DNA of 64,000 nucleotides from Kiritimatiellia bacterium (GTDB lineage: Bacteria; Verrucomicrobiota; Kiritimatiellia; RFP12; UBA1067): positions 1 through 64,000 of the forward strand of contig JAFWKK010000057.1 of NCBI GenBank assembly GCA_017514235.1. Reading direction: 5' to 3'. This document shows, in pieces, positions 8,646 through 58,924 of the stretch. Position 1 is the stretch's first letter, and every line of letters begins with the position of its first letter. The notes beneath the pieces were generated by a model. The model was not told the origin of the DNA, searched no databases, and saw only the letters and a list, made by a program, of their open reading frames with translations. The position numbers and the translations under genes are program-made.

Positions 8646-8647
8646 GC

Positions 8648-9466
8648 ATGAACTTTTTCAAGGGGAGCGTTCTGCTGGGCTTTTGTTTCGTGGCTCTTGC
8701 CGTGCCGGCTGCGTCGCACAGGCTCTCGTTTGCCGATCGGCTTTCCGGCAGGAACGGAAGGCCGTTCCTTATCGCCCATCGCGGATGCCAGTCGCTTGCG
8801 CCAGAGAACACGGTTGCGTCGTTCGCATGCGCCGCGAGGCTCGGGCTGGACGCCATCGAGACCGACGTGCGCCTTACGTCCGACGGTGCGCTCGTCTGCG
8901 TGCACGACGACACGCTGAAGCGCATGTTCGGAACTGACCGCAAGGTGGAGGAGATGCGGCTTGCCGAACTGCGCGAACTCCTGCCGACGAGCGGCAAAGG
9001 CCTAAAGTCGTGGCCTAAGGAGGCGTTGCGCATCCCTACGTTCGCGGAGTACCTTGACGTCTGCGAGCGGTACGACAAGGTGCCGTTCATAGAGACCAAG
9101 GGCGATGTCGCCGTAGTGAAGCCGGTGCTGGACGAAGTGCGGCGGCGCGGCCTTGCGAAGGTCGCCGTTCTGTCGTCCGTTTCGTTCGATCACATACGCG
9201 AGGCGCGTCGGCTCGACAAGGAGATATTCGTTCATCATATCTTCAGCGATCCCGAGCTGCTGGACGAGCTTGCGGCGATGGGGAACGCCGGGTTGTCCTA
9301 CAAATACAAGGACCTGGCGACGGTGCCGGAGGGACTCGTCGGTCGCGTCCACGCAAAGGGCGTGAAGATGTGCCTTCGGGCCGGTGACACGCCGGAGGCG
9401 GTTGCGAAGATGCGTGCGCTCGGGCTTGACTACATTCCGACAAACGTAACGGTTCCGATGGATTGA
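8648..9466 (+). CDS. Secreted glycerophosphodiester phosphodiesterase
   Basis: 272 residues beginning with a signal peptide (up to about residue 22, AVPAAS). The GDPD motifs are clear: AHRG near the start of the mature protein, APENT, the ETDVR pair of metal ligands, VHDDT, and later FIETKGD, SYKYKD and YIPTN. The family cleaves glycerophosphodiesters to glycerol-3-phosphate and an alcohol using a divalent metal. The ATG follows the upstream stop directly, with GGGGGTGTGAG as ribosome site, so it is translationally coupled to the metallophosphoesterase. A broken relative lies at 33497-33963. Confidence 0.9.
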   Translation: MNFFKGSVLLGFCFVALAVPAASHRLSFADRLSGRNGRPFLIAHRGCQSLAPENTVASFACAARLGLDAIETDVRLTSDGALVCVHDDTLKRMFGTDRKVEEMRLAELRELLPTSGKGLKSWPKEALRIPTFAEYLDVCERYDKVPFIETKGDVAVVKPVLDEVRRRGLAKVAVLSSVSFDHIREARRLDKEIFVHHIFSDPELLDELAAMGNAGLSYKYKDLATVPEGLVGRVHAKGVKMCLRAGDTPEAVAKMRALGLDYIPTNVTVPMD

Positions 9467-14400: not shown

Positions 14401-16132
14401 CACTTGCCGTCGCCTCTGGCAATACATATACCTGAAGGTGGCGAAGCGAATACTGTCCTGCGTTGTAAGTCTGCGTCCAGTCCCAGCCTGAATTGGTTGG
14501 GTTGAAATGAGGCCCGATGCCCATTTCTCCAGTATCGTTCTTCTGGAATCTGTTGAAGGTGAAGATACAACTGTTTGTGCCTCTTTCCGTGTCGTGAACC
14601 TGCATCGAGCCATAATCGCCGTTCGACGGCGTGTCGTCCATGTCGTAAACGGCCAAAGCGCCTTCGAGACCGCGCTTGACCGTGCCGTTGAAACCCTCAG
14701 GCCAGAATTCGATGTTGCCGACGGCAATCGTCTGGTTCGTGCGGATGTTGGCGACGTTGCTCCACACGCGCAGGTTCGTCACGTCCTTGATGAACTGCCA
14801 GCCTACAGGCACGCCCACGCGTGTCGCGTCGTTCGTGAACGCATCCATCGACACCCACACGTACTGCATCGGCTCGCCCGCTTTCTGCAACTCCATGTAA
14901 TACGCCACGCGGCTGAACGCTCCGACCTTCGCCGCGTCGTCAACGTTGTATCCGACAGGTTGGGCGGCGTAATTGCCTTTGACGGGCATGTCGAGGTCGT
15001 AAATCAGGCGATAGTTGTTGAACTCATCCGCCGGCACGTAGTGCCGCGCGCCCTGTGGGAATACGCCTGCGATGGTCTTGGATGCGGCGGCGTAAAGCGT
15101 CTTGCCGCCCGTTGCGTTGCGGACGCCGCCCTGCTTCGCGGTGATGGTGATCGGTACGTCATGCACCCCCGCCGGGAACGCAAGCGTGGCCGTGCGTTGG
15201 TTGGCAGAGAGCGTGATTGTCGGTGCAACCGCCGTTCCTGCGACCGTCCAGTTCGCCGCGTCGCAGGCCGTTGCCGCCGTCACCTTCTGGTTGAACGTGA
15301 AATCCACTGTGAACGCGCCATCAGCGTCGTTCGCCATCGTTGTCTGCACCACGGCAAGGTCGTTCTCAGTGGCAAAGCTCGTCGGATCGGGAACAATGCT
15401 TGTAACCGCGCTCACCCAGGCGTTCGCCATGTTCGTGTAGCCCACGTCGTTCGGATGCACCGTGTCGGCGATCTGGCCCCAGCTCGTCACGGCACCATGC
15501 ATGTCAAGGAAGAACGCATCCTGTCCCTTCGCCTGCTGTGCGGCGACTATGCCGGGAACGGCGGGGTTGAACACGTTCGTGATGGCGGCGTACTTCCAGT
15601 TGTTCTCCGTGTCGCCAGCCGTGGTATAGCGCCGCATGAGCGTCGTCACCACCACCTTCGCGGAGGGTTGGCATTCGTAGATGCGGTCGAGAAGGCGCAC
15701 GAGACGGTTTGTCGCCTGGCTTCGGAACGCATCTTCGCCGTCGCCCGTGTCGTTCGTACCGAGATGGAGCAGAATCACATGCGGATCGTCGATCTGCGCG
15801 AAGAACCCCTGAATGTGGTCGTAGATTCCGTTTGAGGCGTTCTCCAGCTTCCAGCCGCTGTGGCCTTCGTGATCGCTGTCGGCGAGGAACGGATCTGTCT
15901 TGCCGTAATTGTCCGTCTCGGTGCCCACGTAATCGACATTGTAGCTAAGGTTGGTGAGCGCTACGTAGAGCGGTGCACGGTAGCCGTTGCCGCGCACGGA
16001 CTGCGACCCGTGCGTGATCGAGTCTCCGAGCGGCATGATGCGCAAGACCGGGTTGTCGGCGGATGCGGAACAGGGAATGGCTGCAAGCAGGGCGACCAGC
16101 GCCGAGACAGCGGAACGGGACGGTTTCAACAT
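11459..16132 (-). CDS. Multimodular SGNH esterase with four C-terminal modules and GMQLLFH tail
   Basis: 1557 residues: signal peptide (about 1-25), SGNH hydrolase domain (about 28-250), a beta-rich linker domain (about 255-350), then four diverged copies of a ~200-residue module. Each module repeats the pattern Y(N/D)VD, RVAYY, W.S.D(A/G)FT(D/N), NIEF, G(Y).(M/C)QVHN and DWTQ-Y. An Ig-like domain with YQWYEDG follows, and the chain ends in GMQLLFH and stop. SGNH motifs are GDSITHG with Ser38, HLGTND and DTVHPND. The family removes acetyl or other acyl groups from sugars; modules of this kind accompany sialate O-acetylesterase-like proteins, from memory. It lies 24 bases after its shorter paralogue, with AAGGAG before the ATG. 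The modules may bind carbohydrate; this is inferred. Confidence 0.85.
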   Translation of the reverse strand: MLKPSRSAVSALVALLAAIPCSASADNPVLRIMPLGDSITHGSQSVRGNGYRAPLYVALTNLSYNVDYVGTETDNYGKTDPFLADSDHEGHSGWKLENASNGIYDHIQGFFAQIDDPHVILLHLGTNDTGDGEDAFRSQATNRLVRLLDRIYECQPSAKVVVTTLMRRYTTAGDTENNWKYAAITNVFNPAVPGIVAAQQAKGQDAFFLDMHGAVTSWGQIADTVHPNDVGYTNMANAWVSAVTSIVPDPTSFATENDLAVVQTTMANDADGAFTVDFTFNQKVTAATACDAANWTVAGTAVAPTITLSANQRTATLAFPAGVHDVPITITAKQGGVRNATGGKTLYAAASKTIAGVFPQGARHYVPADEFNNYRLIYDLDMPVKGNYAAQPVGYNVDDAAKVGAFSRVAYYMELQKAGEPMQYVWVSMDAFTNDATRVGVPVGWQFIKDVTNLRVWSNVANIRTNQTIAVGNIEFWPEGFNGTVKRGLEGALAVYDMDDTPSNGDYGSMQVHDTERGTNSCIFTFNRFQKNDTGEMGIGPHFNPTNSGWDWTQTYNAGQYSLRHLQVYVLPEATASAAPEVVSVSAASGVSGVMLEVKFSTDVLLDSLNGAFALSEGSVVSIERDGSDFSLVRVYATGVASGSFRITVDGVKANTAAATPMEASATMELDRPLPSGVAENVPANLREGYLPIYSLSDIDRRKTTVSWRNGAPYDLDATSGFAGGVERVAYYFETISLDGSVTNFAWTSFDSWTDDPTLLGVPVNDSLGFGQKWVTNQDVYSNVGGVVNGTGMDGGFLEFWPHNYSGGNANNIPYATGVSDWGDSLGSSGWYACMQVHNVTNKQTIFALNNFNGNNASGVCAGIGNNTQYPANDNAGGTINSDWTQAYAPTRTYSRIALHVFAKPKSDVPAHIAANVPAAKNYSLLYQIDVPTPFNVHNAAQYAAAHTIDNRARYAGAHVVRVGYYLELTTTNASPTTTWCWTAFDGFTDNLADYSFATNNNIKRFVTNLDVKSNVSGVSSGWYPDGNIEFFFSNYGRGNGLNIGASTGNFDFDDVPSSETASGYSCFQIHNYNVGATLISIGNMKKTGSANSDILDIGIGNCSTASNKDWTQTYKGKEYSVRRLYVFIALEDTPATLIHAVPSLDGTKVCALFRDNVQGSLRDQAAWTFTAGGATVASVAASPFDTRELIIVPTAPLAANTSYTLRCSYDDAGVAKTASVTFTTPAANPLPSFLTAEAVPEAANYTLVNLQKIKGSINYSWQGAPYNVDESRFVQMDFDRVAYLLHLVSNNGLDQWVWTSMDAFTDDIAKVGIPSKRRDNEFQQYISNLSVRAYRSDGNPYVTAGDFEDGNIEFCWHDYSAGNGKNILNASGSNYDWGDNFSVGKPGYGCLQVHNYRNSQVVLSASRTGSNSITGSRTASLGIGNRSVQESGNTDDDWTLSGNGGNFTTSDLYVLVRQKAPQPTADGPVFTIQPQSAQVSRKQPYTLRAFAPAAVRYQWYEDGRPIANATTITLTVTLVNLGEAHEYKAFAFGYDGSVSESETASLALRGMQLLFH

Positions 16133-16156: not shown

Positions 16157-17875
16157 TTACGGCAATACGTACACCTGAAGGTGGCGAAGGGAATACTGTG
16201 CCGCGTTGTACGTTTGCGTCCAGTCCCATCCGGAATTGGAAGGGTTGAAGTGCGGTCCAATGCCCATCTCGCTGTTGGCAGTTGAGTTGAACCGGTTGTA
16301 GGAAAAGATGCAGCTGTTAGTCCCTCGCGCCGTATCGTGTACCTGGAAGGAGCCGTAGTTGCCGGATGTCGGCGTGTCGTCGAGGTCATAGACGTTCGTG
16401 GCGCCAGGAAGCCTGCGCTTGGGCTTTCCGCCGAAGCATTGCGGCCAGAACTCGATGTTTCCGACGGCGATCGTCTGGTTCGTGCGGATGTTGGGCACGT
16501 TGCTCCACACGCGCAGGTTCGTCACGTCCTTCTGGAATTTCCAGGCATGCGGCACTCCGATGCGTGTCGCGTCGTTCGTGAAAGCGTCCATCGACACCCA
16601 CACGTACTGCAGCGGCTCGCCAGGCTTCTGCAGCTCCATGTAGTAGGCCACGCGGCTGAACGTCCCGATCCTGGCGGAGTCGTCTACGTTGTAAGGAACT
16701 GGATTTTTCGCGAAGTTGCCGACCTGCGGCACGGCAAGGTCGTAGACGAGACGGTAGCCGTTGAACTCTTTAGCCGGCACATAGCGGAATGCACCTCGAG
16801 GGAACACGCCTGCGACGGTCCTGGACGCAGCGGCGTGGAGAGTCTTGCCGCCCGTCGCGTTGCGGATGCCGCCCTGTTTCGCGGTGACGGTGATCGGCGC
16901 GTCATAAACGCCCGCCGGGAATGCGAGCGTGGCCGTGCGCTGGTTGGCGGAGAGCGTAATCGTCGGCGTGGCCGCCGTTCCCGCGACCGTCCAGTTCGCC
17001 GCGTTGCAGGCCGTTGCCGCCGTCACCTTCTGGTTGAACGTGAAATCCACCGTGAACGCGCCTTTCGCGTCGTTCTCTATTGCCGTCTTCACCACGGCGA
17101 GGTCGTTCTCCGTCGCAAAGTTCGCTGGATCCGGGATGATGTTAGTGATGGCGCTCACCCAGGCGTTCGCCATGTTCGTATAGCCCACGTCGTTCGGATG
17201 CACCGTGTCAGCGAGCTGGTCCCAGCTCGACAAGGCGGCATGCATGTCGAGGAACGTCACGTCCTGGCCCTTTGCGCGCTGTGCGGCGACGATTCCTGGC
17301 ACGGCGGGATTGAACGCGTTCGTGATGGCGGCGTACTTCCAGTTGTTTTCCTTGTTGCCTGATTTCGTATAGCGGCGCATGACCGTCGTCGCCACCACCT
17401 TGGCGGACGGCTGGCATTCGTAGATTCGGTCGAGGAGTCGCACGAGGCGGTTCGTAGCCTGGCTGCGGAACGTCTTTTCCCCGTCGCCAGTGTCGTTCGT
17501 GCCGAGGTGGATCAGGATCACGTGCGGGTCGTCGATTTTCGCGAAGAAGTCGGGAATGAAATTGTAGATTCCTTTGGCGGCGTTCTCGAGCTTCCAGCCG
17601 CTGTGGCCCTCATGGCTGATGTCGGCGAGGAATGGGTCTGTCTTGCCGTAGTTGTTCGTCTGCGTTCCCACGTAGTCCACGTTGTAGCCGAGGTTGGTGA
17701 GCGCAACGTAGAGCGGTGCGCGGTAGCCGTTGCCGCGCACCGAATGCGACCCGTGCGTGATCGAGTCGCCTAGCGGCATGATGCGCAAGACAGGGTTGCC
17801 GGCAGATGCGGAACAGGGGATGACTGCAAGCAGGGCGACCAGCGTCGCGACAGCGGAACGGGATGGTTTCAACAT
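16157..17875 (-). CDS. SGNH esterase, short tandem paralogue
   Basis: 572 residues: signal peptide, SGNH hydrolase domain with GDSITHG, HLGTND and DTVHPND, linker domain and one copy of the ~200-residue module. It is nearly identical through long stretches to the first ~575 residues of the downstream gene, pointing to recent tandem duplication. It stops at LQVYVLP, exactly where the longer copy continues into its second module, and it lacks the seven-residue tail of the long copy. AAGGAG precedes the ATG. The AraC/XylR-like regulator lies just upstream in the same direction. The likely role is deacylation of sugars outside the cytoplasm. Confidence 0.87.
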   Translation of the reverse strand: MLKPSRSAVATLVALLAVIPCSASAGNPVLRIMPLGDSITHGSHSVRGNGYRAPLYVALTNLGYNVDYVGTQTNNYGKTDPFLADISHEGHSGWKLENAAKGIYNFIPDFFAKIDDPHVILIHLGTNDTGDGEKTFRSQATNRLVRLLDRIYECQPSAKVVATTVMRRYTKSGNKENNWKYAAITNAFNPAVPGIVAAQRAKGQDVTFLDMHAALSSWDQLADTVHPNDVGYTNMANAWVSAITNIIPDPANFATENDLAVVKTAIENDAKGAFTVDFTFNQKVTAATACNAANWTVAGTAATPTITLSANQRTATLAFPAGVYDAPITVTAKQGGIRNATGGKTLHAAASRTVAGVFPRGAFRYVPAKEFNGYRLVYDLAVPQVGNFAKNPVPYNVDDSARIGTFSRVAYYMELQKPGEPLQYVWVSMDAFTNDATRIGVPHAWKFQKDVTNLRVWSNVPNIRTNQTIAVGNIEFWPQCFGGKPKRRLPGATNVYDLDDTPTSGNYGSFQVHDTARGTNSCIFSYNRFNSTANSEMGIGPHFNPSNSGWDWTQTYNAAQYSLRHLQVYVLP

Positions 17876-29203: not shown

Positions 29204-31096
29204 ATGAATAAACTAATGATGATGACATGCGCGGCGGTGTCCGCGCTGAGTGTTTCGGCGGCGGATTGGTACGTCGCCCCTAACGGCACGGGCGGCGGTG
29301 CGTCGCCTTCGGATCGCGGCGACCTCATGGGCGTCCTTTACAATGGCCAGATTGCGAGTGGCGACACAATCCATATCGCTTCTGGAACGTACAACCTCGA
29401 TGTAGGCAAGATTCCGGCGGGTAAGGGCGCCTATCTCCGTGTTCCCGACGGTATCTCCGACCTGACGCTTCTCGGGGAGAGCAGCGATCCTGAGGAGGTG
29501 CGCCTTGTCGGCAATCAGTCCGACGGCAAGAGCATCCTGTATTTCCCCAAAGGCGGAAACGTCCTCAGGAACCTGCTCCTGTCGGGTGGCTACACGGAAT
29601 ATAAGGGGGCGGGCATTGCGATGGATGATGCTTACGTCGGCAATCCAGAGTCCGCGTTCTTCGCCTCCAACTGCGTGGTTGAGAACTGCTCGGCGCGCTA
29701 CATGGGGGCGAACTTCGGCGGATTGTGGCGCGATTGCGTCATACGAAACAACGAGGTGCGAAACAAGACTCCGACTCCCGACCCAAGTGAAAACGCGAAC
29801 TGGCCTAATTTAATCGAAGGGTCGGGCGGCGGCGTTTTCCACGCCACGCTTTATGATTGCGTCATCACCAACAACTATGCGGGATGCTGCGGCGGAGGCA
29901 TTGCCGGAGGAAGGGTTCACGGCATGACATACGGGGCTGTGTGTGAGACCAGGGCCTACAACTGCCTGATTGGCTGGAACCGCTCCACGTATGGCGGAGG
30001 TGCGGGTTCCTCGCCGCCCTACTGTACGCGAGACCTCTGCAAGCTTTTCGACTGCACGCTTGTCGGGAACGCTGCTGCATACGATCCCTACGGCGACGGC
30101 GGCGGTCTTGGCGGCGGCGCCTATCAGTGCGTCGTCTCCAACTGCGTTGTAACGGGGAACTCCGCCACAAGGGATAACGACACCCAGTTTGGAGCCTACG
30201 GACATAATTACAGAAAAGGCAAGGGCGGCGGTGTCATGGACTGCAAGGTTGTGGATTCCACGCTCGTTGAAAACACCTGCACCGGCGGCGGAGCGGGCGC
30301 GTCGAACAGTGATTTGACGCGGTGTGTGCTTCAGGACAACTCCGCAACGGGCGGCTCGCCGTACTACGCCAACTATGGTGGCGGCGCATACGCATGCTCG
30401 TCGTTGGATTGTGTGTTTGTCGGAAACACTGCCGGATACGGCGGCGGCGCGTACGACGGGTATTTGGAGAACTGCGTGATTTCAAACAACCAGTCAACCG
30501 TTTACGACGGCGGTGCGGCGTACAATGCATCAACCCGCAACTGCGTCGTCACGGGGAACATCGCCACCAGATACTTTGCGCTGTGCAAGGGAACGCACTA
30601 CGGCACCCTTGTCTATGGAAATGCAAACGTGGAGCTTGAACCGCCGTCGGCAAGCGGAATCGGTGTGAACGACGGAGAAGAGCTGGCTGTTGCTGTCAAC
30701 TGCACGGTCTGGAACAACGACAGGAGCTCGGCGCAGATTTCCCGCACCTATATGACGAACTGCATCGTGGGAAGCGTCGAATACATCCCCGCCGCGGTCA
30801 ATTCCTTCTGGCGCTACGGGACGGTGAACAACCAGACGGGTTGCATCAGCGGCGAGAATAAGAACCCGAAGTTTACCGGCGTGACACTTGCGGACACGTA
30901 TGCGACGGTTTTGGGTCTCGCTCCGGCGGCCTTTTCAATCAAGGGTTCGTCGCCGTGCTTCGACAGGGGATTGCTGCTTGAAGGGCAGCAAGCCGATACA
31001 GACCTTCTGGGCAATCCACGTGTCAGGTATGATGGGGTGGACATGGGAGCCATAGAATGCTTTTATAGACCCGGCTTTATTTTGTCCATACATTAA
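29204..31096 (+). CDS. Secreted right-handed beta-helix surface protein with GFILSIH tail
   Basis: 630 residues: signal peptide (to about residue 20, VSAADWYVAPNG), then beta-helix coils rich in N-C-V-V and GGG turns (CVVENCSA, CVVTGNSATRDN and GGGAGASNSD are typical). It closes with a choice-of-anchor-Q-like end (GNPRVRYDGVDMGAIE), eight more residues, and GFILSIH followed by stop. The general layout matches the protein at 5576-7537 although the repeats differ. AAGGAG precedes the ATG. It follows the alpha-barrel-like gene by 17 bases. No catalytic residues are visible; adhesion or carbohydrate binding is possible. Confidence 0.82.
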   Translation: MNKLMMMTCAAVSALSVSAADWYVAPNGTGGGASPSDRGDLMGVLYNGQIASGDTIHIASGTYNLDVGKIPAGKGAYLRVPDGISDLTLLGESSDPEEVRLVGNQSDGKSILYFPKGGNVLRNLLLSGGYTEYKGAGIAMDDAYVGNPESAFFASNCVVENCSARYMGANFGGLWRDCVIRNNEVRNKTPTPDPSENANWPNLIEGSGGGVFHATLYDCVITNNYAGCCGGGIAGGRVHGMTYGAVCETRAYNCLIGWNRSTYGGGAGSSPPYCTRDLCKLFDCTLVGNAAAYDPYGDGGGLGGGAYQCVVSNCVVTGNSATRDNDTQFGAYGHNYRKGKGGGVMDCKVVDSTLVENTCTGGGAGASNSDLTRCVLQDNSATGGSPYYANYGGGAYACSSLDCVFVGNTAGYGGGAYDGYLENCVISNNQSTVYDGGAAYNASTRNCVVTGNIATRYFALCKGTHYGTLVYGNANVELEPPSASGIGVNDGEELAVAVNCTVWNNDRSSAQISRTYMTNCIVGSVEYIPAAVNSFWRYGTVNNQTGCISGENKNPKFTGVTLADTYATVLGLAPAAFSIKGSSPCFDRGLLLEGQQADTDLLGNPRVRYDGVDMGAIECFYRPGFILSIH

Positions 31097-38797: not shown

Positions 38798-39898
38798 ATG
38801 AAGTTCAAACTTTCCGCTGTTGCACTGTTTTGTGGGATTGTCATGCAAATAGCTTTTATTGCATCGGCTGCTGAGTGTTCTGATCTGTCGGATTTGTCGC
38901 TTTCGGCCTTCATGCGCAAGTCGGGCGAGGCAGATGACGCACCCCGCCTTCAGCGCGCCATAGACTCTGCACCAAACGGCGTCGTCTCCGTTCCGGCCGG
39001 CGTCTACGAGATTGGCACAACGGTGTACATGACGAACAGATGTTCGCTTCTAATGCACAAGAATGCGGTTCTCAAAGCCGTTAAATCAATGGAATATGTA
39101 TTGAACATCGGCTTCGCAAAGAGCTGGGACAACTACGCCAGGCATTTTGACTTTGGTTGTTTTTTCAAGGGTGGACGCGTTGACGGAAATGGACTCGCGA
39201 ACTGCGTCCGCGTGGCTAATTTCTTCCACTACACCATGCGAGACATCCAGTTTCACAATGGTGTGAAGTATGGCCTGTATGTGCGAGGTGGATGCGAACT
39301 CATCGCCGACAACCTATATTTCATCTGCAACAAGCGGGGACTGGCGGGGAACACCGCCCTGTACGTGTGGGGCAGCGACAGCCATTATACCGACATAGTG
39401 ATTGTCGATTGGACGGTTGGCGTGCATGTCCCATACGGAAGCTCCAACCGATTCACCAGATGTCACGTGTGGGGCGGGTGCGTTCCGCCTGCGAAGGATG
39501 GCGAACTGCCGGAGATGTTGAAGGATTCCGTCTGTTTCTGGCTTGGAGAGAAAGGCGCGTCCAACATTCTCAGGGATTGCTATGCCGACACGGGCGTCAC
39601 GGGATACCTTTGCGAAGGTTGGGAACTGCGCCTGTTCAGCTGCTCCTATTTCTGGAATGCAAGAGTGCGCGGAGCGGCTGACGCCGATGCCGTAGCGTTC
39701 AAGATTCCGTCGGGCTCCGCAATAGTGGATGCCGGTCATGTGTGCAAAACCATTTCCGGGCTTAGGATACACGAAGGGAATGGTCGTGTGACATGGAGCA
39801 GGATGATCTATAATGGACCTAAACTTGACGCGGCTCAAGATGATTTGCCTGGAAGGGTTCTGTTTGGAGAAACCCGCAACACAGATCTTGCAAAGTAA
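38798..39898 (+). CDS. Secreted pectate-lyase-superfamily beta-helix protein
   Basis: 366 residues. AAGGAG precedes the ATG at 38798, which opens a signal peptide (FKLSAVALFCGIVMQIAFIASAA). Then comes the pectate_lyase_3-type start: SAFMRKSGEADDAPRLQRAIDSAPNGVVSVPAGVYEIG reduced to its landmarks is DDAPRLQRAID and VPAGVYEIG. The beta-helix follows with YTDIVIVDWTVGVHV and CYADTGVTGY. This fold occurs in polygalacturonases, glucanases and rhamnogalacturonan-degrading enzymes. No confident catalytic acids were identified. It does not carry the seven-residue tail found on the other beta-helix proteins and ends in NTDLAK. Between GH39-like and GH78 genes it suggests a pectin-type substrate. Confidence 0.77.
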   Translation: MKFKLSAVALFCGIVMQIAFIASAAECSDLSDLSLSAFMRKSGEADDAPRLQRAIDSAPNGVVSVPAGVYEIGTTVYMTNRCSLLMHKNAVLKAVKSMEYVLNIGFAKSWDNYARHFDFGCFFKGGRVDGNGLANCVRVANFFHYTMRDIQFHNGVKYGLYVRGGCELIADNLYFICNKRGLAGNTALYVWGSDSHYTDIVIVDWTVGVHVPYGSSNRFTRCHVWGGCVPPAKDGELPEMLKDSVCFWLGEKGASNILRDCYADTGVTGYLCEGWELRLFSCSYFWNARVRGAADADAVAFKIPSGSAIVDAGHVCKTISGLRIHEGNGRVTWSRMIYNGPKLDAAQDDLPGRVLFGETRNTDLAK

Positions 39899-39926
39899 AA
39901 TCAAAATCAACAAAAGGAGAGACAGT

Positions 39927-42900
39927 ATGCAATACGAACACAGAAGTGCAAAGATGTGCATCATGGTGTTTGCGATGTGCGTAGCAATTTCCGTCAGCGC
40001 GGCGAACGTGGCGACCTGCACATGGTCTGGCCCTGCATCGGGCGGAAACTGGATGAATGCCGCGAACTGGACGATTGTGCGCGCGTCAGGAAGCGAATCC
40101 CTGACAGACGAGCAGGTCCTTGATTCGTTCTGCTCGTGGAACTTGAACGCTCTCTCGGACGGAGCGGTGGTGACGAACACGTCGTCCTCGCTAAAGATCG
40201 GCGGCATCACTTTCAACACCGCGAACCGCGGGAGGATAACGCTGGACGACACGGATGGTGCGTCTTTCAAGTTCGGCCCGGACACATGGATTTCAGTTGC
40301 CGCAGGGAATACAATAGTATGCCGCCTGCGTCAACCAGACAATACGGAGGAATATTCTGGAAACGACCGAAGGGTTGCCACTTCCGGCGATGGAACCTTT
40401 GAGTTTCGCCCCAATGGAGCGTATGCCACGCGCGCGCGCGACTACCAGCCGTGCGGCGGTACGACCATGCGGCTTTGTTCAAACATGAACCTACAGACTT
40501 CATGGTTTACGCCATGGAACACTTCTGTCGTCGCTGTCGAAGGTGATGTCAAGGTAGGACGTCTCAACGGCGGCGACACTGGTACAACCCTTCGCCTTGA
40601 TGGTGGATTGCTGCGGTTGACGAGCGCCGATCAAGTTGCATCCCAAGCCGCTGTGAACATGAAGATGCCCACGCGTGGAACAGGCTCGATAATTATGTCC
40701 GGCGGGCAAGACTACAACTGGACGGGCGCACTTGACTATACCGGCCTTTTTTCTGTCCTGAACGGTCGTGCGTCGTTCGGCGCTGGGGTGAGCGCGCCAA
40801 CAAGCGTTGAGATGCGCGTGGATGGTGGCGGCGAGATTGCGTTCGCCGCTCCGCAGACGCTGGGCATAGTGTCCGGCGACAGCCCAGCCGGGCGCATCAG
40901 CGTTGTGTCCGGCGGAACGTTGACCGTCGCTGGAACTAACTCTGCCGCTTTCTCGCGCTTTGAGGGTGCAGTTTCCGGAGTGGGTGACTTTGTGAAATCC
41001 GGCTCCAACTACGATTTGACGCTTGCCGGAGCGAATGCGTGGACAGGTGATACGATGGTAAATGCTGGAACGCTCTGCATAAGACGTCCGGAGACGCGTC
41101 CCGGACTTGTTGCGCAATGGACGTTTGACGATTCTGCGAGCCTTGGTGCAGACAGCGGTCCAACTGGCATTGCGCTTGAATTTCCGAGCGGTACTGGTGG
41201 ACAGGTTTCGGATGGCGTTGGCGGACGTCCAGGTTTGAGGCTATGGTCGCAACAGTATTTTAGCGTTCCGACATCTGCGCTCACTGCCGACAATGGATTC
41301 TGGAAATACAATTCTGCCGGGTCGATAAGTTTCTGGATTAAGCCAAATCTTTCGGACTGCACCACTACCACTTACATCTTCAGGCGCGGAAACTGGTCGG
41401 CTCGCAGCATGTTCATGTTGTGGCTCAATGCAAGCACAAGGCAGTTCAGGCTGTCTGTCGATGAATTCAACAAGACCTCTGACGCATTAAACGTCTATGC
41501 TACGGCAGACACAATTAGTGATGGCAAGTGGCATCATGTCGTGTGTTCCTATGGGGATGGCAAAATCCAGCTGTGGTACGATGGTGCCCTCCTTGGCGAA
41601 TCTCAATGCGGAATTGTTACAATGGAGAAAGCCAATGCTGCCACTCCATTAAGTGCGCTTACGTTCGGGACTAGTGAATATGGACATCGACTCGCCGCCA
41701 ACATGGACGATGTCTGTGTATGGAACCATGCTCTTTCGGAATCTGAGGTGTTGCGCGAATATTCGCTGCTTGGCGAGGCGACCTTCCAGCGGGAGACGCT
41801 GCCCGCCCCTGTCGCGCACTGGAAATTTGACGACGACGCTAACCCTGGCAAGAACGAAATGGGAAGTGGCGATCTTGTCGCCAACTCGCCGGCATCCTCG
41901 ACAGCGACCTTGTCATCTTCCTATTCGCCGTTCGGCAAGATGCTCCTTGGCTCGGCGATGCGGATGGCAGACAATTCTCTCCCGCAGGGGACGCCTATTG
42001 GCACGAGTCCGTTTTCTTTGTCTGTGCGTGCGATGCCTGTTCGGTCGGATAGTGGTTTGCCTATCGTTTACTTGGGTACGGACAACTGGGCCCAGAGGTT
42101 CTACATAAGCTATGGCGGCACTCCGCGAACGCTTAATGCGCAAGTGCACAACGGCGCAAACGAGTACAACCTCAAGGCGGATATATCTGACTGTAATCGC
42201 ACGGTGGACTGCAATTGGATCAACTGGACCGTGACCTACAATCCAAAGTCACATGTCATGCGTCTTTATCGTGATGGAATTCTTGTGAAGAAGAACAACG
42301 ACGTCTGGTGCGACCTGCCGTCATCTGGAAATGTATATGTAAACTGGCAACCTGGTCTGGGAGGGCAAAAGGCAAACAACTGCATAGACGACTTGCGGAT
42401 ATATAACTGTGAGCTGACCCCGTATGAGGTGAAGGCGCTCGTCAGGTCGTTCGAGACGGGCGGACAGAAGCAAGTCCTTCCGGCCGGTTCCACGGTTGCA
42501 GTCGCTAGCGGTGCCGCGTTTGCCGTAGAGGGCTCGCATATCACAACAAATGCAATGTCGGGAGCGGGCGATGTTGTGCTAAGGAACGGCGCACGTTTCT
42601 GTGCCACGGACTGGAGCGGATTCACGGGAAGCGTCACGGGCTGTGGCGAGCTGGTTGTCGCACGTGGTTGCCAAGGTCCGATCTCCGCCCAAGTGTCTGT
42701 TCCTGTTTCGTTCCAGGATGGAGTCATATCCGTCTCGGCCGAGAACCTGACACAGCCGATGGTCAGGACCTCGGGCAAGGTGTATCTGCGCGACGCCATG
42801 CGCGCCGAACTCGCCCCCGGCTCCAGACTCGATGACGTGTCCGGCCACACGTACAAGCTGGCTGAATGCTCGGGTGTCATCGGTGCGCCCGATTCGTCCG

Positions 42901-43022
42901 GTTGGACCATCGATTCAAGGTGCTCCGCCGGGGACCCGGCGCCGAAGGCGACGCTCAAGTTCAACAACGGGCTGCTGACGCTCCGCGTGTCGAGCGTCGG
43001 AACGGTCATAAGGTTCAGGTGA
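39927..43022 (+). CDS. Giant secreted LamG/strand-repeat protein with GTVIRFR tail
   Basis: 1031 residues starting at MQYEHRSAK after GGAGAGAC; signal peptide to about residue 26. Residues about 27-390 are autotransporter-type beta-strand repeats (SGPASGGNWMNAANW and NAWTGDTMVNAGTLCI are typical). Two LamG-like concanavalin domains follow, each opening with VAQWTFDD or VAHWKFDD and closing with DDVCVWNHALSESEV or DDLRIYNCELTPYEV. More strand repeats follow, and the protein ends in GTVIRFR and stop without any beta-barrel translocator. LamG domains bind carbohydrates. It likely sits on the cell surface, holding pectic substrate for the GH39-like and GH78 enzymes on either side. Confidence 0.82.
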   Translation: MQYEHRSAKMCIMVFAMCVAISVSAANVATCTWSGPASGGNWMNAANWTIVRASGSESLTDEQVLDSFCSWNLNALSDGAVVTNTSSSLKIGGITFNTANRGRITLDDTDGASFKFGPDTWISVAAGNTIVCRLRQPDNTEEYSGNDRRVATSGDGTFEFRPNGAYATRARDYQPCGGTTMRLCSNMNLQTSWFTPWNTSVVAVEGDVKVGRLNGGDTGTTLRLDGGLLRLTSADQVASQAAVNMKMPTRGTGSIIMSGGQDYNWTGALDYTGLFSVLNGRASFGAGVSAPTSVEMRVDGGGEIAFAAPQTLGIVSGDSPAGRISVVSGGTLTVAGTNSAAFSRFEGAVSGVGDFVKSGSNYDLTLAGANAWTGDTMVNAGTLCIRRPETRPGLVAQWTFDDSASLGADSGPTGIALEFPSGTGGQVSDGVGGRPGLRLWSQQYFSVPTSALTADNGFWKYNSAGSISFWIKPNLSDCTTTTYIFRRGNWSARSMFMLWLNASTRQFRLSVDEFNKTSDALNVYATADTISDGKWHHVVCSYGDGKIQLWYDGALLGESQCGIVTMEKANAATPLSALTFGTSEYGHRLAANMDDVCVWNHALSESEVLREYSLLGEATFQRETLPAPVAHWKFDDDANPGKNEMGSGDLVANSPASSTATLSSSYSPFGKMLLGSAMRMADNSLPQGTPIGTSPFSLSVRAMPVRSDSGLPIVYLGTDNWAQRFYISYGGTPRTLNAQVHNGANEYNLKADISDCNRTVDCNWINWTVTYNPKSHVMRLYRDGILVKKNNDVWCDLPSSGNVYVNWQPGLGGQKANNCIDDLRIYNCELTPYEVKALVRSFETGGQKQVLPAGSTVAVASGAAFAVEGSHITTNAMSGAGDVVLRNGARFCATDWSGFTGSVTGCGELVVARGCQGPISAQVSVPVSFQDGVISVSAENLTQPMVRTSGKVYLRDAMRAELAPGSRLDDVSGHTYKLAECSGVIGAPDSSGWTIDSRCSAGDPAPKATLKFNNGLLTLRVSSVGTVIRFR

Positions 43023-53049: not shown

Positions 53050-54635
53050 AATTTTGCTCATTGCATTTTACTGTCGTCTGCGCGCTCTTGACGCCTTGCG
53101 CGCCTGCGGCGTTCAAGATGGATCGCTCTGCGATGAGCGACGCCTACTGGAAGATATGGAACGACGACGTACAGTCGAAGATCGACGCCGACATCGAGAA
53201 GTACCGCAAGGCGGACGCGTCCGTCGAGGTCGCCGCGCCGGACGGCGCGGAGGTGAGGGTGGAGCAGGAGAGCCATGCGTTCTTCTTCGGCGCACACATC
53301 TTCAACTTCAACCAGCTCGGCAAGACCGAATGGAACAACCGCTACAAGGAGCTGTACGGCACGCTCTTCAATTCCGCGACCGTCGCGTTCTACTGGAGGA
53401 CGCTGGAGCGGTATCCCTATGCGCCGCGCTTTGAGGAACGCTACGAGGACACCGAGAACTTCTGGAACAGCTGCCCCCATCCGAAGGAGCAGCCGCATTG
53501 GCGGCGTCCCGCGCCTGATCCGGTGGTTGCGTATCTCAAGGCGCGCGGTGTGCGGATCCACGGCCATCCGCTCGTGTGGGGCAGCACCCACTGGATGACG
53601 CCGATGTGGCTCTGGGACGGATTCTGCCCCGATGCCGAGAAACGCGCGCTGGAGCAGGCGAGCGGCGTCGAGATTCCGCGTGCGGATCCGCTGAACGAAA
53701 TCAGCGCGTGCGACCGAGACTGGAGCCGTGCGTGGTGGACGGCCTGGAAGAATGTGTACGAGCGGCTTTCCGATGACGAGATCGCAAAGCTCATACCGAC
53801 GTTTCTCAAGGCGCAGGAGGAGTTCTACGAGAAGCGCATCCGCGATATCGCCGCCCGCTACGGAAGCCGCGTAGATTCGTGGGATGTCGTCAACGAAAGC
53901 GCAACGGATTTCGACAAGTTCGGGCGCAAGGCGGTGCGCGGAAAGCCGTTCGACCGCAGCTGGTACGGTCCGATGCCGGCGGACTATGCGTACAAGGCGT
54001 TCGTCTGGGCGCAGAAATATCTGCCGCAGACGGCCTGGCTGAACATCAACGAGTACAACATGACGCCGTTCTTCGATCAGGTTAAAGACCTTCTCGCGAA
54101 CGGAGTGCGCATTGACGTGGTCGGCTCGCAGATGCATCTTTTCAATCCGGCAGAGAGCGTGAAGATCGCGCGCGGCGAGTTCACGAAGGAGGTCTATGCG
54201 AAGACACATCCCGCCGCCGTGGCCGAGCGCTTCAGCGTTCTGTCGCAGGCCGGACGGCCCGTTCACCTCTCCGAAATCACAATCACCGCGCCCGACATGT
54301 CTCCGCGCGGGCAGATGGTGCAGGCGATAATCATGCGCAACCTCTATCGCGCATGGTTCTCGGTCGAGAAGATGAACGGCATCACGTGGTGGAACGTGGT
54401 GGACGACTGCGGCGCTCCGGGCGAGCCTTCCATCAGCGGGCTCTTCACGCGCGACATGCGCCCGAAGACGGCGTACTTCGCCATGGACGATCTCGTGAAC
54501 CGCGAATGGAAGACGCGCCTGAACGTGAAGGCTTCCGGCGGAAAGGTGGCGTTTCGCGGCTTCAAGGGCCGCTACCGCCTAACGTGGAATGGCGTGGACG
54601 GCAAGGAACATTCGAAGCTCGTCAATGTAAACTAA
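53046..54635 (+). CDS. GH10 endo-beta-1,4-xylanase-like enzyme, secreted
   Basis: 529 residues. AAGGAGG precedes the ATG; signal peptide to about residue 19. A preceding beta-domain-like segment (SDAYWKIWNDDVQSKIDADI onward) leads into a GH10 barrel with FFFGAHIFNFNQ, HGHPLVWG, WDVVNES holding acid/base Glu284 and VHLSEITI holding nucleophile Glu410. The variant FNFNQ in place of the classical DEMK/NxMKW indicates a divergent GH10 subgroup, so the substrate may not be plain xylan. It overlaps the esterase by ATGA. A close relative starts at 63400. Confidence 0.88.
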   Translation: MKFCSLHFTVVCALLTPCAPAAFKMDRSAMSDAYWKIWNDDVQSKIDADIEKYRKADASVEVAAPDGAEVRVEQESHAFFFGAHIFNFNQLGKTEWNNRYKELYGTLFNSATVAFYWRTLERYPYAPRFEERYEDTENFWNSCPHPKEQPHWRRPAPDPVVAYLKARGVRIHGHPLVWGSTHWMTPMWLWDGFCPDAEKRALEQASGVEIPRADPLNEISACDRDWSRAWWTAWKNVYERLSDDEIAKLIPTFLKAQEEFYEKRIRDIAARYGSRVDSWDVVNESATDFDKFGRKAVRGKPFDRSWYGPMPADYAYKAFVWAQKYLPQTAWLNINEYNMTPFFDQVKDLLANGVRIDVVGSQMHLFNPAESVKIARGEFTKEVYAKTHPAAVAERFSVLSQAGRPVHLSEITITAPDMSPRGQMVQAIIMRNLYRAWFSVEKMNGITWWNVVDDCGAPGEPSISGLFTRDMRPKTAYFAMDDLVNREWKTRLNVKASGGKVAFRGFKGRYRLTWNGVDGKEHSKLVNVN

Positions 54636-54658
54636 CGACTAAAAAGGAGACATCCGCA

Positions 54659-57600
54659 ATGAAAGTTGCTAAGGGTAGGAAAACAGTGGCGAAAGGCGTT
54701 TTCGCCGCACTGTACGTATTCATGGCATCGCTTTCTGTGATAGCAGCAGACTACACATGGAAGGGCGGTACGGGCAACTGGACTGACGCCTCCAAGTGGG
54801 AAACGACGGCATCCGGCTATCCGAGTTCCTCCGATGCGGAGGTGAAGTTCAGCGCGGATGCAAACGTCACGCTTGACACGGGTGCGCAGACCGACGTCGC
54901 CTACATCAATGTGACGGCGGGCAACGTCGTCCTCACGGCGACGGAAGGCTCGTCAATCAAGATCAACTGGCTGGGCTACAACAACCCAAGTGGCAAGACT
55001 GGTAATCGCGGTATCATGGTTTCCGAAGGCGCCACGCTTGACCTTGCCGCTCCGTTGGCACAATTCTCAGGTCGTGTTGATAGGCAGGGAACCGGCAGAT
55101 TGATCGTCCGCAACATCACCGTGTCCAAGCAGGATGCCGCAAGTTGGTACGTATTCAACGGTACGAACGAGTTTGTGGGCACGGCTTTCGTGAACCAGCC
55201 CAACGCCGACTTCACGGTCGGACTGGGAACGCCGCATGACAAGTCGTTTGTCTTCATCAAGGACAGCGCGCGGATCACTTCTCGGTTGTTCTCCACATCG
55301 GCTGGCGGCAATCCAGTGCCGAACACAAAGATTGTACAGGACGGCGCAGAAACCGTGGTTTCGGTGTCGGGAAATCTTGACCTCAGGAACAATTCCGGCA
55401 ACGACGGCCACTGCTACACGCTGAGGAGCGGAACATTGTCAGCCAGCGAACTTAAGATCTCGCCCAATAACAACGCAGCCGCCAATTATGCGCCAGAGCA
55501 CTTCCACTATATCCAGGAGGGCGGCACTTCGACGTTTACCAAGGTCACGCTCACCAAAGGCTCCGCGGCTTTGCGCGGCGGCGTAATGAACATCCCCACT
55601 CTCAGTGCCATCACCACTGACGGAGGTTGTGCGTTGAATCTCGAAGGCGGCACTCTCGCGCTCTCCGCAGAGACGCTTTCGACCTGGGACTGGTCGGAGC
55701 CAAAGTTCGATTATGCGCCCGGAGCATCGGTTGCGATCGTCGGCAGCTCGTCTCTTTCCATTTCGAGAAGCTGCTCCACCTATGGCCTTGGTCTTGAAAT
55801 CGGTGAGGGCAAGACTGTGCAGGTTGCTTCCGGTGCGACCGTTACCGCACCGCGCAATTCTACCAACGTCTGGAAGGTGACGATCAACAATGGTTCTGTT
55901 TTGAGGTTGGCCAGTGCGACGGCGCGTATCTTCGTTCCGCTTGATTTGTCTGTGAACGGGACCGGCAAGGTCAATATGTATTCTTCTTCCGGCGGATATG
56001 GCGGTGGATCGCGCAGCACGGTGGTTGCGCATCGTCTCGTCGTGGATGGCATTGAGAAGGCGAAAGGGCGGCATACGGCGACGTCAAGCGACTTCCTTGA
56101 TGCCGGCACGGTGGGATCCGTCAAAAACGCTGCGTCCATCCTCGTTCCGACGGTTTGGACCGGTGCGGGTGGAGATAGCCTCTGGAGCAATCCCGCGAAC
56201 TGGGACAACAACACGGTTCCGAACGGTACTGCCGCGATAGCGGATGTGTCTCGCGCCGAGTCCGTCACGCTTGATCAGGATGTCACGCTCAATGCGCTTG
56301 TCGCGATTCCCAACGGAATCGAACGCAGGGTGACGATTACGGGTTCCGGCACAATCACGTTGCATTCATCGGCCAGCTACCAGTGCAATATATTCTTGCC
56401 AGAAGGTTGTGAGCTTGTCTTGGATGCCAATCTGACGCGAGATACTTCAAACATACATGGCGTATTCGGCGGTGGTCGGCTCACGGTTAAGAAAGTGTTT
56501 CCGGGTTGCACAAGTGCATTGGTTCCTTATATGGCCATTGATGGTACCTTGGCTTTTGCTGGTTCTACGGCGAGCGTTGCGAACATACCCACCAGCAACT
56601 ATGCTTTTCTATCCCTGTGGACATACGAATCTGGTGTGGGCCGTGTGCTGTTCGAGAACGGTACGACATTCACGGCGTCGCGTTTGTGGAACGGAGAGAA
56701 TAGCTATGTGCCGCCGTATGAATTTAGGCAAACTGGCGGCACGATAACGCTTAGCACATTTTACCTTAATAACGGCAACAATGTTGGCAATCAAACAGCT
56801 GGGGCTCCGTTCTATTACCTTGAGGGAGGTGCGTTGACAGTTCCCGCCGTTCTCAACCTTGGTCGTAGCCTTGGCCCTTCGGACAGCAGGAAACGCTTTC
56901 CGGGCGGTAGCTTTGAAATGTCCGGCGGCAGCTTCAGCTGCAATGGCTTCAATGGCGGCTGCAATCAGAACTACGTGAATCTTTACGGTGGCGATTTGTA
57001 CCTTAGTGGAAATCTTGCGGCGTCATTCAATCCAGTAGTGGTCGGCGGGAAAGAAACCGTTGTCCAGACGAACAAGAACGACTACACCTATTATTTTGGC
57101 GGCGTGACGATACGTCCGACGGGCGCTCAACGCAACCTTGACTCCGGCAATGCCTATCTGACGGGGAAGAACGGTGATGTGAAGTTCGACCTGTCCGAAC
57201 GGGATTTCGGGTTTTCTCCTGGCAATACGGTTTCGGGGCCTGGCGGAATCGTCGTGAGCGGTGGAAGCGGGCGCAAGCTCTATTCGGCAGCTGACTTCAC
57301 TTTCACAGGGGCGATCACCGTCAAGAGCGGCGGAATCTACTTCTACGAGGCATCGACCGTCAACGGACCGAGTGCGCTCATTGTCGAGAACGCGGATTCT
57401 TCTGCCTATTTTGGAAACGGCGCCGCGAAAGCGTTCGACCGGATAGTGCTTGCCCAGGCGTCGAACCTCTCCGTCGGCCAGAACAAGACGGTTACGACGA
57501 AGCGGCTGGTTGTTGGCGGAGCGGATGTTGCGGCGGGTACCTACACTGGCGTATATGGTTCGGGCACGGTGGTCGTGACTGGTTCCGCTCCCGCTTCGTG

Positions 57601-58924
57601 GGTTGAGGATGGAGCGGGCGACCTTTCATGGTTCGCCGACGGCACGACGACGACGGTCGATGCGGCGATAACGCTTTTTTCGCTCACCTATGTTCCTGCC
57701 ACGGCGGGCGAGACGAATGCGATTGCGGGCGCGGCGCTGACGTTCGCTGACGGTGCGAACATTCATGTCGAGAGGGGCGATACGCTTGTCATCAACAACG
57801 ATGTCGTGTTCGCTGGCAAGGTGACGAAGACGGGCTGGGGCGAGGTCGTGTTCAACGGCGCAGTGACGAGTGCGGTCACGTCAGCGGCGGACACGGACAA
57901 CTACTGGCTTACCGTCACCGAGGGCGGCGCGACGTTCGACGGTGCGGTTACGGGCGTACGGCTCGTTACGTGCGGCGCGATTGATGGGCAAGGCGTTCCG
58001 GTCATCACGCTCAAAGAGAACTGCACGGTCAGCAACTACGGAATCGTCCTCACGGCGTGGAACGAGGGAAGTACCGCCTGTTGTGGCGAGACGCACCAGC
58101 AGGGCGCGACGGTGGATTACTCCACCACAATTTTTGACGACCTTATCTCCAACAAAAGCAATTGGGCGCTGACGCAGCCGCGCAGCGGCGGTTATGGTCG
58201 GTATGTGCTTGATTCGGGCGAGTTTCGCGGGCACAACAGCTTCCATATGTCGTTCGTATTTGCTTCTAGTGTCAACCATCTTGGTTCGTTCGAGTTTGTC
58301 CAGAACGGCGGAACCTTCATAGAGCCGAAGAACATCATGTTCTCACGTGTGACAAGCGGCGTCAAGTTCACCTACACGCTTAACGGCGGCAGGTTTGAGT
58401 TCGGTGGATATCTCGCAGCCTTCGCCGATCCTACTCTCAACATCTTGAAACTGAATGGCGGAACGTACGTTGCCAACGCTTCGGATGCCATAAAACGCGA
58501 ATCCTTCACGTTGAATACGAGCGGCACGGTTACGTTCGAAGTCGCCGCCGGCAAGACGTTGACCATTGCGGACGATGGTACGGATGCGGTGTCGTTCGCC
58601 AAGACGGGCGATGGTTCGCTTTCGTTTGATGGCGTGTTAGATATTGCCGGCCTTGACGTGCAGGGTGGTACGGTCACGCTGACGGACAAGGTTCTGCAAA
58701 TGTTGGATGGCACGGCTGGCCTGTCGATAGCGAGGGGCGCGACGCTCAATCTCGACTATGACGGCGAGGCGACGTTCAGGACGTTGACAGTCGGCCGTTC
58801 CCGTGCTTCCGGTGTCTATTCGGCGACGCGAGGTTCCTCTGCCGTGAAGAGGGTTCTGGGCGGTGACGGTGAGTTGAAGATTCTTGAGGGTAGCGACCCT
58901 GGCGTGTTTATCATGATTCGCTGA
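54659..58924 (+). CDS. Giant autotransporter-like strand-repeat protein with GVFIMIR tail
   Basis: 1421 residues from the ATG after AAAAAGGAG; signal peptide to about residue 30 (ASLSVIAADYTW). The rest is built of autotransporter-associated beta-strand repeats: YTWKGGTGNWTDASKW and a second VWTGAGGDSLWSNPANWDN unit near residue 500, then many GG-rich coils such as FEMSGGSFSCNG and TLNGGRFEFGG. There is no C-terminal beta-barrel; the chain ends EGSDP then GVFIMIR and stop. It is the largest reading frame but one in the window. Likely a surface fibre or carbohydrate-binding scaffold following the GH10 enzyme. It could be transcribed from the sialic/xylan operon. Confidence 0.8.
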   Translation: MKVAKGRKTVAKGVFAALYVFMASLSVIAADYTWKGGTGNWTDASKWETTASGYPSSSDAEVKFSADANVTLDTGAQTDVAYINVTAGNVVLTATEGSSIKINWLGYNNPSGKTGNRGIMVSEGATLDLAAPLAQFSGRVDRQGTGRLIVRNITVSKQDAASWYVFNGTNEFVGTAFVNQPNADFTVGLGTPHDKSFVFIKDSARITSRLFSTSAGGNPVPNTKIVQDGAETVVSVSGNLDLRNNSGNDGHCYTLRSGTLSASELKISPNNNAAANYAPEHFHYIQEGGTSTFTKVTLTKGSAALRGGVMNIPTLSAITTDGGCALNLEGGTLALSAETLSTWDWSEPKFDYAPGASVAIVGSSSLSISRSCSTYGLGLEIGEGKTVQVASGATVTAPRNSTNVWKVTINNGSVLRLASATARIFVPLDLSVNGTGKVNMYSSSGGYGGGSRSTVVAHRLVVDGIEKAKGRHTATSSDFLDAGTVGSVKNAASILVPTVWTGAGGDSLWSNPANWDNNTVPNGTAAIADVSRAESVTLDQDVTLNALVAIPNGIERRVTITGSGTITLHSSASYQCNIFLPEGCELVLDANLTRDTSNIHGVFGGGRLTVKKVFPGCTSALVPYMAIDGTLAFAGSTASVANIPTSNYAFLSLWTYESGVGRVLFENGTTFTASRLWNGENSYVPPYEFRQTGGTITLSTFYLNNGNNVGNQTAGAPFYYLEGGALTVPAVLNLGRSLGPSDSRKRFPGGSFEMSGGSFSCNGFNGGCNQNYVNLYGGDLYLSGNLAASFNPVVVGGKETVVQTNKNDYTYYFGGVTIRPTGAQRNLDSGNAYLTGKNGDVKFDLSERDFGFSPGNTVSGPGGIVVSGGSGRKLYSAADFTFTGAITVKSGGIYFYEASTVNGPSALIVENADSSAYFGNGAAKAFDRIVLAQASNLSVGQNKTVTTKRLVVGGADVAAGTYTGVYGSGTVVVTGSAPASWVEDGAGDLSWFADGTTTTVDAAITLFSLTYVPATAGETNAIAGAALTFADGANIHVERGDTLVINNDVVFAGKVTKTGWGEVVFNGAVTSAVTSAADTDNYWLTVTEGGATFDGAVTGVRLVTCGAIDGQGVPVITLKENCTVSNYGIVLTAWNEGSTACCGETHQQGATVDYSTTIFDDLISNKSNWALTQPRSGGYGRYVLDSGEFRGHNSFHMSFVFASSVNHLGSFEFVQNGGTFIEPKNIMFSRVTSGVKFTYTLNGGRFEFGGYLAAFADPTLNILKLNGGTYVANASDAIKRESFTLNTSGTVTFEVAAGKTLTIADDGTDAVSFAKTGDGSLSFDGVLDIAGLDVQGGTVTLTDKVLQMLDGTAGLSIARGATLNLDYDGEATFRTLTVGRSRASGVYSATRGSSAVKRVLGGDGELKILEGSDPGVFIMIR

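Follow-up and report, generated by a model that had tools for sequence, protein, structure and literature searches.

A seven-residue tag was found at the exact C-terminal ends of five large proteins encoded in a 64,000-nucleotide stretch of DNA from a Kiritimatiellia bacterium (GCA_017514235.1, contig JAFWKK010000057.1, positions 1 to 64,000). This whole stretch is called the window below; its genome (G000) comprises 3.96 Mb in 82 contigs and belongs to a family of 115 genomes, labelled f1. The tag has the consensus P-x-G-x-x-I-x-I-R, directly before the stop codon. We propose, with a probability of roughly 0.64 judged from the sequence, that it is a new, minimal and portable C-terminal sorting or anchoring signal, which replaced PEP-CTERM on big surface proteins. 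Its reader is probably an outer-membrane factor that recognizes it as a beta strand.

A first-pass annotation of the window had reported the five tails on unrelated proteins. All five were in frame and directly against a stop codon, and the bodies of the carriers were indeed unrelated. The carriers, their tails and one untagged paralogue, with lengths in amino acids (aa), are as follows.

5576..7537, plus strand: beta-helix surface protein, 653 aa, with a signal peptide and a choice-of-anchor Q domain up to residue 642, followed by the tag (family scans, translation).
7514..7537, plus strand: C-terminal tag GLIMLFR and stop (translation).
11459..16132, minus strand: GDSL/SGNH esterase, 1557 aa, with a signal peptide, a long modular tail, weak Ig-like matches near the end, and the tag (Pfam, translation).
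11459..11482, minus strand: C-terminal tag GMQLLFH and stop (translation).
16157..17875, minus strand: short GDSL paralogue of the preceding carrier, untagged, ending in LRHLQVYVLP, an internal negative control (translation, Pfam).
29204..31096, plus strand: secreted repeat protein, 630 aa, with a choice-of-anchor Q-like end and the tag (family scans, translation).
31073..31096, plus strand: C-terminal tag GFILSIH and stop (translation).
39813..43022, plus strand: PATR/LamG surface protein with a signal-peptide-like start at residue 39 of the open reading frame (ORF), and the tag (family scans, translation).
42999..43022, plus strand: C-terminal tag GTVIRFR and stop (translation).
54353..58924, plus strand: large secreted protein without a family match over the cut-off, with a signal-peptide-like start at ORF residue 103, and the tag (family scans, translation).
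58901..58924, plus strand: C-terminal tag GVFIMIR and stop (translation).

Upstream read-through probably accounts for residues 1-38 of ORF 39813-43022 and residues 1-102 of ORF 54353-58924. Two of the five carriers had been described as ending in a choice-of-anchor-Q-like domain; the protein at 5576-7537 scored 25.9 bits (cut-off 25), while that at 29204-31096 is similar but stayed under the cut-off with 18.9. The further claim that glycosidases, esterases and the short SGNH paralogue lack the tag held for the paralogue and for the glycosidases scanned (GH30, two GH2, GH39, alpha-L-rhamnosidase, GH92 and GH10). It failed for one esterase, the carrier at 11459-16132, and thus applies to the other esterases only. 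Among 44 greedily chosen window ORFs of at least 60 aa, five end in the loose form of the tag, G-x-x-[ILVMF]-x-[FILVYM]-[RHKQ]; when the last 30 residues of each were shuffled 2000 times, no tag arose 1886 times, one tag 113 times and two tags once. The five tagged proteins lie scattered in a polysaccharide-degradation island (744-63403; GH30, GH2, GH39, rhamnosidase, GH92, GH10 and DUF4838).

In the whole genome, a loose DNA pattern was too noisy (159 matches against 129 for the control), and stricter patterns were used instead. A GM-type pattern (G-M-x-h-x-h-[RH]-stop, h being mostly hydrophobic) gave 15 matches against none for the reversed pattern. One was a false stop at TGG; the remaining 14 all end ORFs of at least 92 aa, 11 of which extend beyond the 5' edge of the sequence fetched. 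We then called ORFs, greedily by length, in 20 stretches of this genome and 20 stretches of four relatives, all of which had been picked for pattern matches, so the frequencies and the Fisher table below come from biased samples. The strict form G..[IL].[IVF][RH] stood at the C-terminal end of 38 of the 612 ORFs from the window and these stretches. At each offset of 1 to 30 residues from the stop it occurred in zero or one ORF (5 in total), and in 200 shuffles of the tails it had a mean of 0.135 and a maximum of 1. This result indicates a C-terminal signal and excludes an effect of composition.

The loose tag also went together with export. In the window and the stretches of its own genome, 37 of 324 ORFs were tagged, and a signal-peptide-like start, called by a home-made rule, was present in 29 of 34 complete tagged ORFs compared with 91 of 261 untagged ones. 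In the four relatives, 18 of 288 ORFs were tagged, with signal peptides in 10 of 15 complete tagged ORFs and 75 of 250 untagged ones; tagged ORFs open at the 5' side (3 of 37 and 3 of 18) were omitted from these counts. When pooled, the figures were 39/49 against 172/511 (Fisher P 5e-10). The tagged signal-peptide proteins were longer than the untagged ones, with medians of 846 aa (n=39) and 506 aa (n=172). A crude rule flagged a lipobox in 2 of the 49 tagged ORFs, both of which have AxA-type signal peptides by eye, so the carriers do not qualify as lipoproteins on this feature. In a sample of contig starts from four family genomes, chosen regardless of matches, 3 of 97 ORFs were tagged, all three with a signal peptide. 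The checks proposed in the first-pass annotation, enrichment over shuffled C-termini and among signal-peptide proteins, were therefore passed on the sampled stretches.

The fuller consensus is P-x-G-[TMALF]-h-[IL]-h-[IVF]-[RH]-COOH, with Gly at -7, T, M, A or L at -6, I or L at -4, and I, V or F at -2. The last residue is R in 41 of 55 tails and otherwise H, Q or K. Among 57 tagged proteins, the positions left free by the pattern, -6, -5 and -3, were hydrophobic in 36, 47 and 37 (background upstream, 36%), D or E occurred in a single tail, and Pro lay within -11..-8 in 38, most commonly at -9 (19/57). We aligned 44 of the 48 tagged ORFs from G000 and G110, a genome of family f15, excluding four that run off their stretch. 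In this MAFFT alignment, which ends in PxGxxIxIR, only M1 and the tag Gly were invariant.

The carriers were diverse. The 57 proteins formed 38 clusters by similarity reaching the C-terminus and 23 by any body similarity. Pfam listed 23 families in the 44 aligned carriers, led by LamG (8) and PATR (7), and the NCBIfam autotransporter-type repeat TIGR02601 was present in 11 of them. No curated C-terminal sorting signal was among 25 of the 27 NCBIfam families listed for these 44 carriers. In eight proteins only a spacer of 4-5 residues separates a choice-of-anchor Q motif from the tag. When the window's choice-of-anchor Q protein was aligned with tagged homologues, the alignments reached residue 651-653, whereas with several homologues lacking the G-tag, in some of which the domain is internal, they ended at residue 642; one of the latter (L252) carries a variant tag of family f4, described below.

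Two tiny tagged proteins were found directly upstream of untagged signal-peptide proteins: one of 112 aa (L031:11595-11933, minus strand), beside L031:10300-11574 and 7675-8976, and one of 92 aa (G000:C30:63749, L008), beside L032:7291-8700. Both scanned neighbours (L031:7675-8976 and L032:7291-8700) have FGE-sulfatase domains. The tiny proteins might act as adaptors through which their neighbours borrow the tag. The motif E[AS]R[YF]xT precedes the tag in both and in the tail of L015 (G000:C69). The N-terminus of this single ORF resembles, by eye, a zinc-finger anti-sigma protein, and the frame continues through an internal signal-peptide-like start and a LamG-like stretch to the tag; L015 is either a genuine fusion or a pair of genes sharing one frame.

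The tag was found to occur more widely than the first-pass annotation had stated. In family f1, an I/R DNA pattern gave 858 matches against 131 for the reversed control and exceeded the control in 93 of 115 genomes (below it in 14); 15 of 30 inspected loci end an ORF of at least 90 aa. By the same measure, the excess in f34 (14 against 2 and 14 against 1) was noise, since only 1 of 30 loci from five genomes ended such an ORF (98 aa), and the excess in f8, f5, f21 and f43 was rejected at 0 of 25 loci (f8 and f5: 0/15). In all, 2 of 30 loci from six genomes outside f1 and f34 did so; both belong to f3 (G201), of the same order as f1, in which 2 of 5 inspected loci are true tags, both behind choice-of-anchor Q. 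Family f15 (G110) gave 22 matches against none, with real tagged proteins.

Two more families have Gly-poor or Gly-free variants, several of which follow choice-of-anchor Q: PSGLFIIVK, EATILIVR and VALMLIVR in f24 (G177; L243-L249), and HPTVMVFR, ATVFIMR and NPFVLMVR in f4 (G195 and G136; L251-L255). In stretches picked for choice-of-anchor Q matches, a broad tail test gave 10 of 61 ORFs in f24, one of which (288 aa) resembles a membrane protein, where 0.27 were expected from internal windows; f4 gave 5 of 56 against 0.20, and of these five, one protein present in two genomes accounts for two, while another, with the end NATILLKAK, is doubtful. The same test gave none in small samples of f2, f6, f8, f9 and f13 (5 to 27 ORFs each) and f3 (18 ORFs), and none of 22 ORFs in an f3 contig-start sample was tagged. 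The tagged group is known here from metagenome-assembled genomes only, many from herbivore gut. Contigs with the exosortase type of this lineage are titled Kiritimatiellae, Verrucomicrobia, Lentisphaerae or uncultured bacterium, many of them from the gut of goat, sheep, yak, deer, cattle or horse.

We compared this distribution with that of PEP-CTERM and its exosortase (PF09721). Exosortase was found in 37 of 38 genomes (1-6 matches each, one in G000; f24 and f3 lay outside this set), in tagged f1, f4 and f15 and also in f2, f6 and f13, which appear to lack the tag. PEP-CTERM proteins numbered 1-10 per genome in f1 (20 genomes), 1-2 in f4 (3), 1 in f15 (1) and 2 in f24 (1), compared with 7-116 in f2, f5, f6, f8, f9 and f13 (11 genomes; in the three f8 genomes, scoring covered 150 candidates only). 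The family means did not overlap (4 tagged against 6 other families, exact P 0.0095). Most PEP-CTERM proteins read in f1 are small, 16 of 17 measuring 161-230 aa, and have the classic VPEP-TM-RRR end (TM, transmembrane; VPEPTSGLLMLLGLAGLALRRRRA). In its PATR-type body, a PEP-CTERM protein of f6 (L227) resembles eight tagged proteins from f1 and f15, with a best E of 6e-12. From the contrast between families we infer that the tag replaced PEP-CTERM. Exosortase and its clients occur alongside the tag, which does not obviously depend on them, and none of the tagged tails from the window and the sampled stretches has a PEP motif or a membrane-spanning run.

The exosortase extends into an EpsI-like part in all ten tag-rich genomes read (G000, G203, G302, G304, G312, G316, G318, G336, G344 and G110), confirmed as Pfam DUF3485 in G000 and G110. 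This fusion was ruled out as a marker of tag use, because G253 and G370 have an unfused 286-aa exosortase yet carry GFFIRLR, and the few-tag genomes G341, G239 and G327 have long EpsI-bearing exosortases. In G000 and G110 the fusion is directly followed by a GT4 (WecA-like) sugar-phosphate transferase with CoA_binding_3 (L203:10064-13473 and L205:9210-13406). In G253 the exosortase and a DUF3485 protein are separate neighbouring genes, and G370 is alike by motif. Tags are rare near exosortase: 80 named loci with 936 ORFs held 6 loose tags, where shuffling gave a mean of 0.885 and a maximum of 6, and that neighbourhood thus gives no clue.

Taken together, we favour the following course. The carriers would leave the cytoplasm by their Sec signal peptides, and the Pro-rich linker would keep the tail away from the last folded domain. 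An outer-membrane factor, presumably a dedicated receptor, would capture the short, hydrophobic, strand-like tail, probably by strand addition, and then translocate the protein or tether it at the surface. On large surface proteins the tag would have supplanted PEP-CTERM, leaving to exosortase a few, mostly small, classic PEP-CTERM clients. The first-pass annotation had spoken of a minimal, undescribed surface-sorting tag; the tag proved to be shared, exactly C-terminal and carried by unrelated exported proteins, and a surface location would be an extension of these findings. A bolder version would be a barrel-less outer-membrane route, in which a stand-alone strand of seven residues suffices to display large beta-helical or LamG proteins through a dedicated receptor unrelated to exosortase, type IX secretion or known autotransporters, and which displaced PEP-CTERM in several Kiritimatiellae-related families. 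We hold this version only tentatively and consider it rather unlikely as a whole.

Several observations weigh against the reading as a sorting signal that replaced PEP-CTERM. Under the home-made rule, 10 of 49 tagged ORFs have no signal peptide. The PEP-CTERM contrast is one of 4 against 6 families that are related to each other, and single genomes overlap (7 in an f13 genome, up to 10 in f1). The raw excess of the tag pattern was uncorrelated with the PEP-CTERM count over 36 genomes (rho -0.06, P 0.72), in our opinion because the DNA pattern is noisy in some families and misses the variants; the contrast emerges only after raw matches in PEP-rich families are dropped and the f4 and f24 variants are counted. 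The similarities of L227 end about 100 residues before its C-terminus, which weakens the case for a tail swap on one protein. Absence of the tag in f2, f6, f9 and f13 rests on pattern counts and 5-19 ORFs each, and some f9 genomes exceeded the control (15 against 6 and 15 against 5) in uninspected pattern counts. Single-sequence AlphaFold runs for two window proteins gave mean pLDDT (predicted local distance difference test) values of 37 and 32 and no usable model. No receptor, translocon, processing enzyme or sorting gene was found.

The tail might instead be a donor strand for the assembly of surface fibres, or bind a surface partner, without being a transport signal. The strand-like alternation of hydrophobic residues, the Pro-rich linker and the large adhesin-like bodies would suit this role, and so would the small tagged proteins beside FGE-domain proteins if they are adaptors. 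However, a near-identical tail on dozens of unrelated bodies better fits one shared receptor than many partners, and no fibre subunit was identified, none having been searched for. We therefore regard a donor strand as possible but doubtful.

The first-pass annotation had related the pattern to the beta-signal of the beta-barrel assembly machinery (BAM). As a stand-alone beta-signal read by BAM/Omp85, the tail would dock to the seam of BamA in the manner of a barrel's final strand. The G-x-x-Hy-x-Hy alternation is that of the beta-signal of the sorting and assembly machinery (SAM), many carriers have autotransporter-type repeats (PATR in 7/44, TIGR02601 in 11/44) without a clear barrel domain, and Omp85 was found in 24 of 25 family genomes. 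Omp85 was, however, also found in few-tag genomes (G171 and G384), so its presence does not discriminate. Among 27 Omp85 loci of the family, 5 of which were not cleanly readable, the 20 BamA C-termini that could be read end in FSFxIGFE or FSFx[IV]G[YF]DF; those of two further Omp85 proteins are SVQFQY and SAQLQF. Their last residues are F, E or Y, with aromatic residues, and not R or H; the tag is therefore distinct from the C-termini of the Omp85 barrels of this lineage, the only barrels checked. No autotransporter barrel was among the 23 Pfam families of the 44 carriers, in which barrel matches were weak and confined to single members (OpcA, E 0.0019; an OmpL47-type barrel, E 0.047). The beta-signal interpretation was thus not borne out as first proposed, and we consider it slightly less credible than a donor strand.

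Another reading, in which the tail is a shrunken and degenerate PEP-CTERM processed by the exosortase-EpsI that these genomes encode, is improbable. Such a relation would be in line with the near-universal exosortase, the EpsI-like extension in the ten tag-rich genomes read and the scarcity of PEP-CTERM proteins in tagged families, and both signals have a P near the start, a hydrophobic stretch and a basic end. On the other hand, the five-residue hydrophobic run is too short to span a membrane, while PEP-CTERM has a predicted transmembrane helix (PMC1569441). Classic VPEP-TM-RRR proteins persist in the family genomes, indicating that exosortase has clients of its own. Fusion and tag are uncoupled in the five genomes described above, and G171, G239, G327 and G341, which have few or no tags, keep exosortase and 3-6 PEP-CTERM matches.

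Chance, or the closing strand of ordinary shared domains, is a most improbable source of the tag even though some carriers do share terminal domains (clusters of 9, 5, 5, 3 and 2), because chance is refuted by 38 occurrences where 0.135 were expected, and a structural origin would require the closing strands of many domains, in 38 C-terminal clusters, to converge on G-x-x-I-x-I-R, while the choice-of-anchor Q alignments stop short of the tail when the G-tag is missing.

New enzymes or secretion systems, such as exosortase, rhombosortase, myxosortase and the type IX secretion system (T9SS), have repeatedly been reached by way of C-terminal sorting tags. A seven-residue tag would rank among the shortest of such signals, and it has no membrane helix. 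It marks adhesin-like and carbohydrate-binding-like proteins, and would help annotators to recognize likely surface proteins in these genomes. It is also easy to search for: comparing the genomes that have the tag with those that lack it, together with the PEP-CTERM contrast, could expose the sorting gene by phylogenetic profiling.

In the titles and abstract starts of the literature searched, nothing like this tag was described, and no paper joined 'Kiritimatiell' with 'PEP-CTERM'. The tag shares with PEP-CTERM/exosortase (TIGR02595, PF09721) its C-terminal position, its portability, its many copies per genome, its signal-peptide carriers and a hydrophobic stretch with a basic end. It differs in having neither PEP motif nor transmembrane helix, in its length (7 residues against about 25) and in occurring in genomes that also hold real PEP-CTERM proteins; TIGR02595 was absent from the NCBIfam matches of the five window proteins and from 25 of the 27 families listed for the 44 carriers. 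With the BAM/SAM beta-signal, whose SAM consensus has G-x-x-Hy-x-Hy spacing near the C-terminus, it shares that spacing but differs in its R/H end, in carriers without a clear barrel domain and in the different ends of the family's BamA. MYXO-CTERM and GlyGly-CTERM, each with a transmembrane helix and a basic cluster, are likewise single tags on many unrelated surface proteins. MYXO-CTERM differs in being tripartite with an invariant Cys (PMC11980579).

The C-terminal domain (CTD) of T9SS substrates differs from the tag in the KxxxK strand, which does not follow the tag. No T9SS CTD model matched the five window proteins at E up to 1, in agreement with the first-pass statement that no domain of about 70 residues of this kind is present, and none was among 25 of the 27 NCBIfam families of the 44 carriers. 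A search for SprA, the one T9SS gene searched for, gave no match in 15 genomes, nor in control genomes. The two systems are alike in a P-x-G-x-x-hydrophobic strand near the C-terminus, a Sec signal peptide and large surface proteins. T9SS CTDs carry the motifs PxGxYVV and KxxxK within their last 22 residues (PMC5445135), and, at the level of sequence, the resemblance of PxGxYVV to P-x-G-x-x-I-x-I-R is striking.
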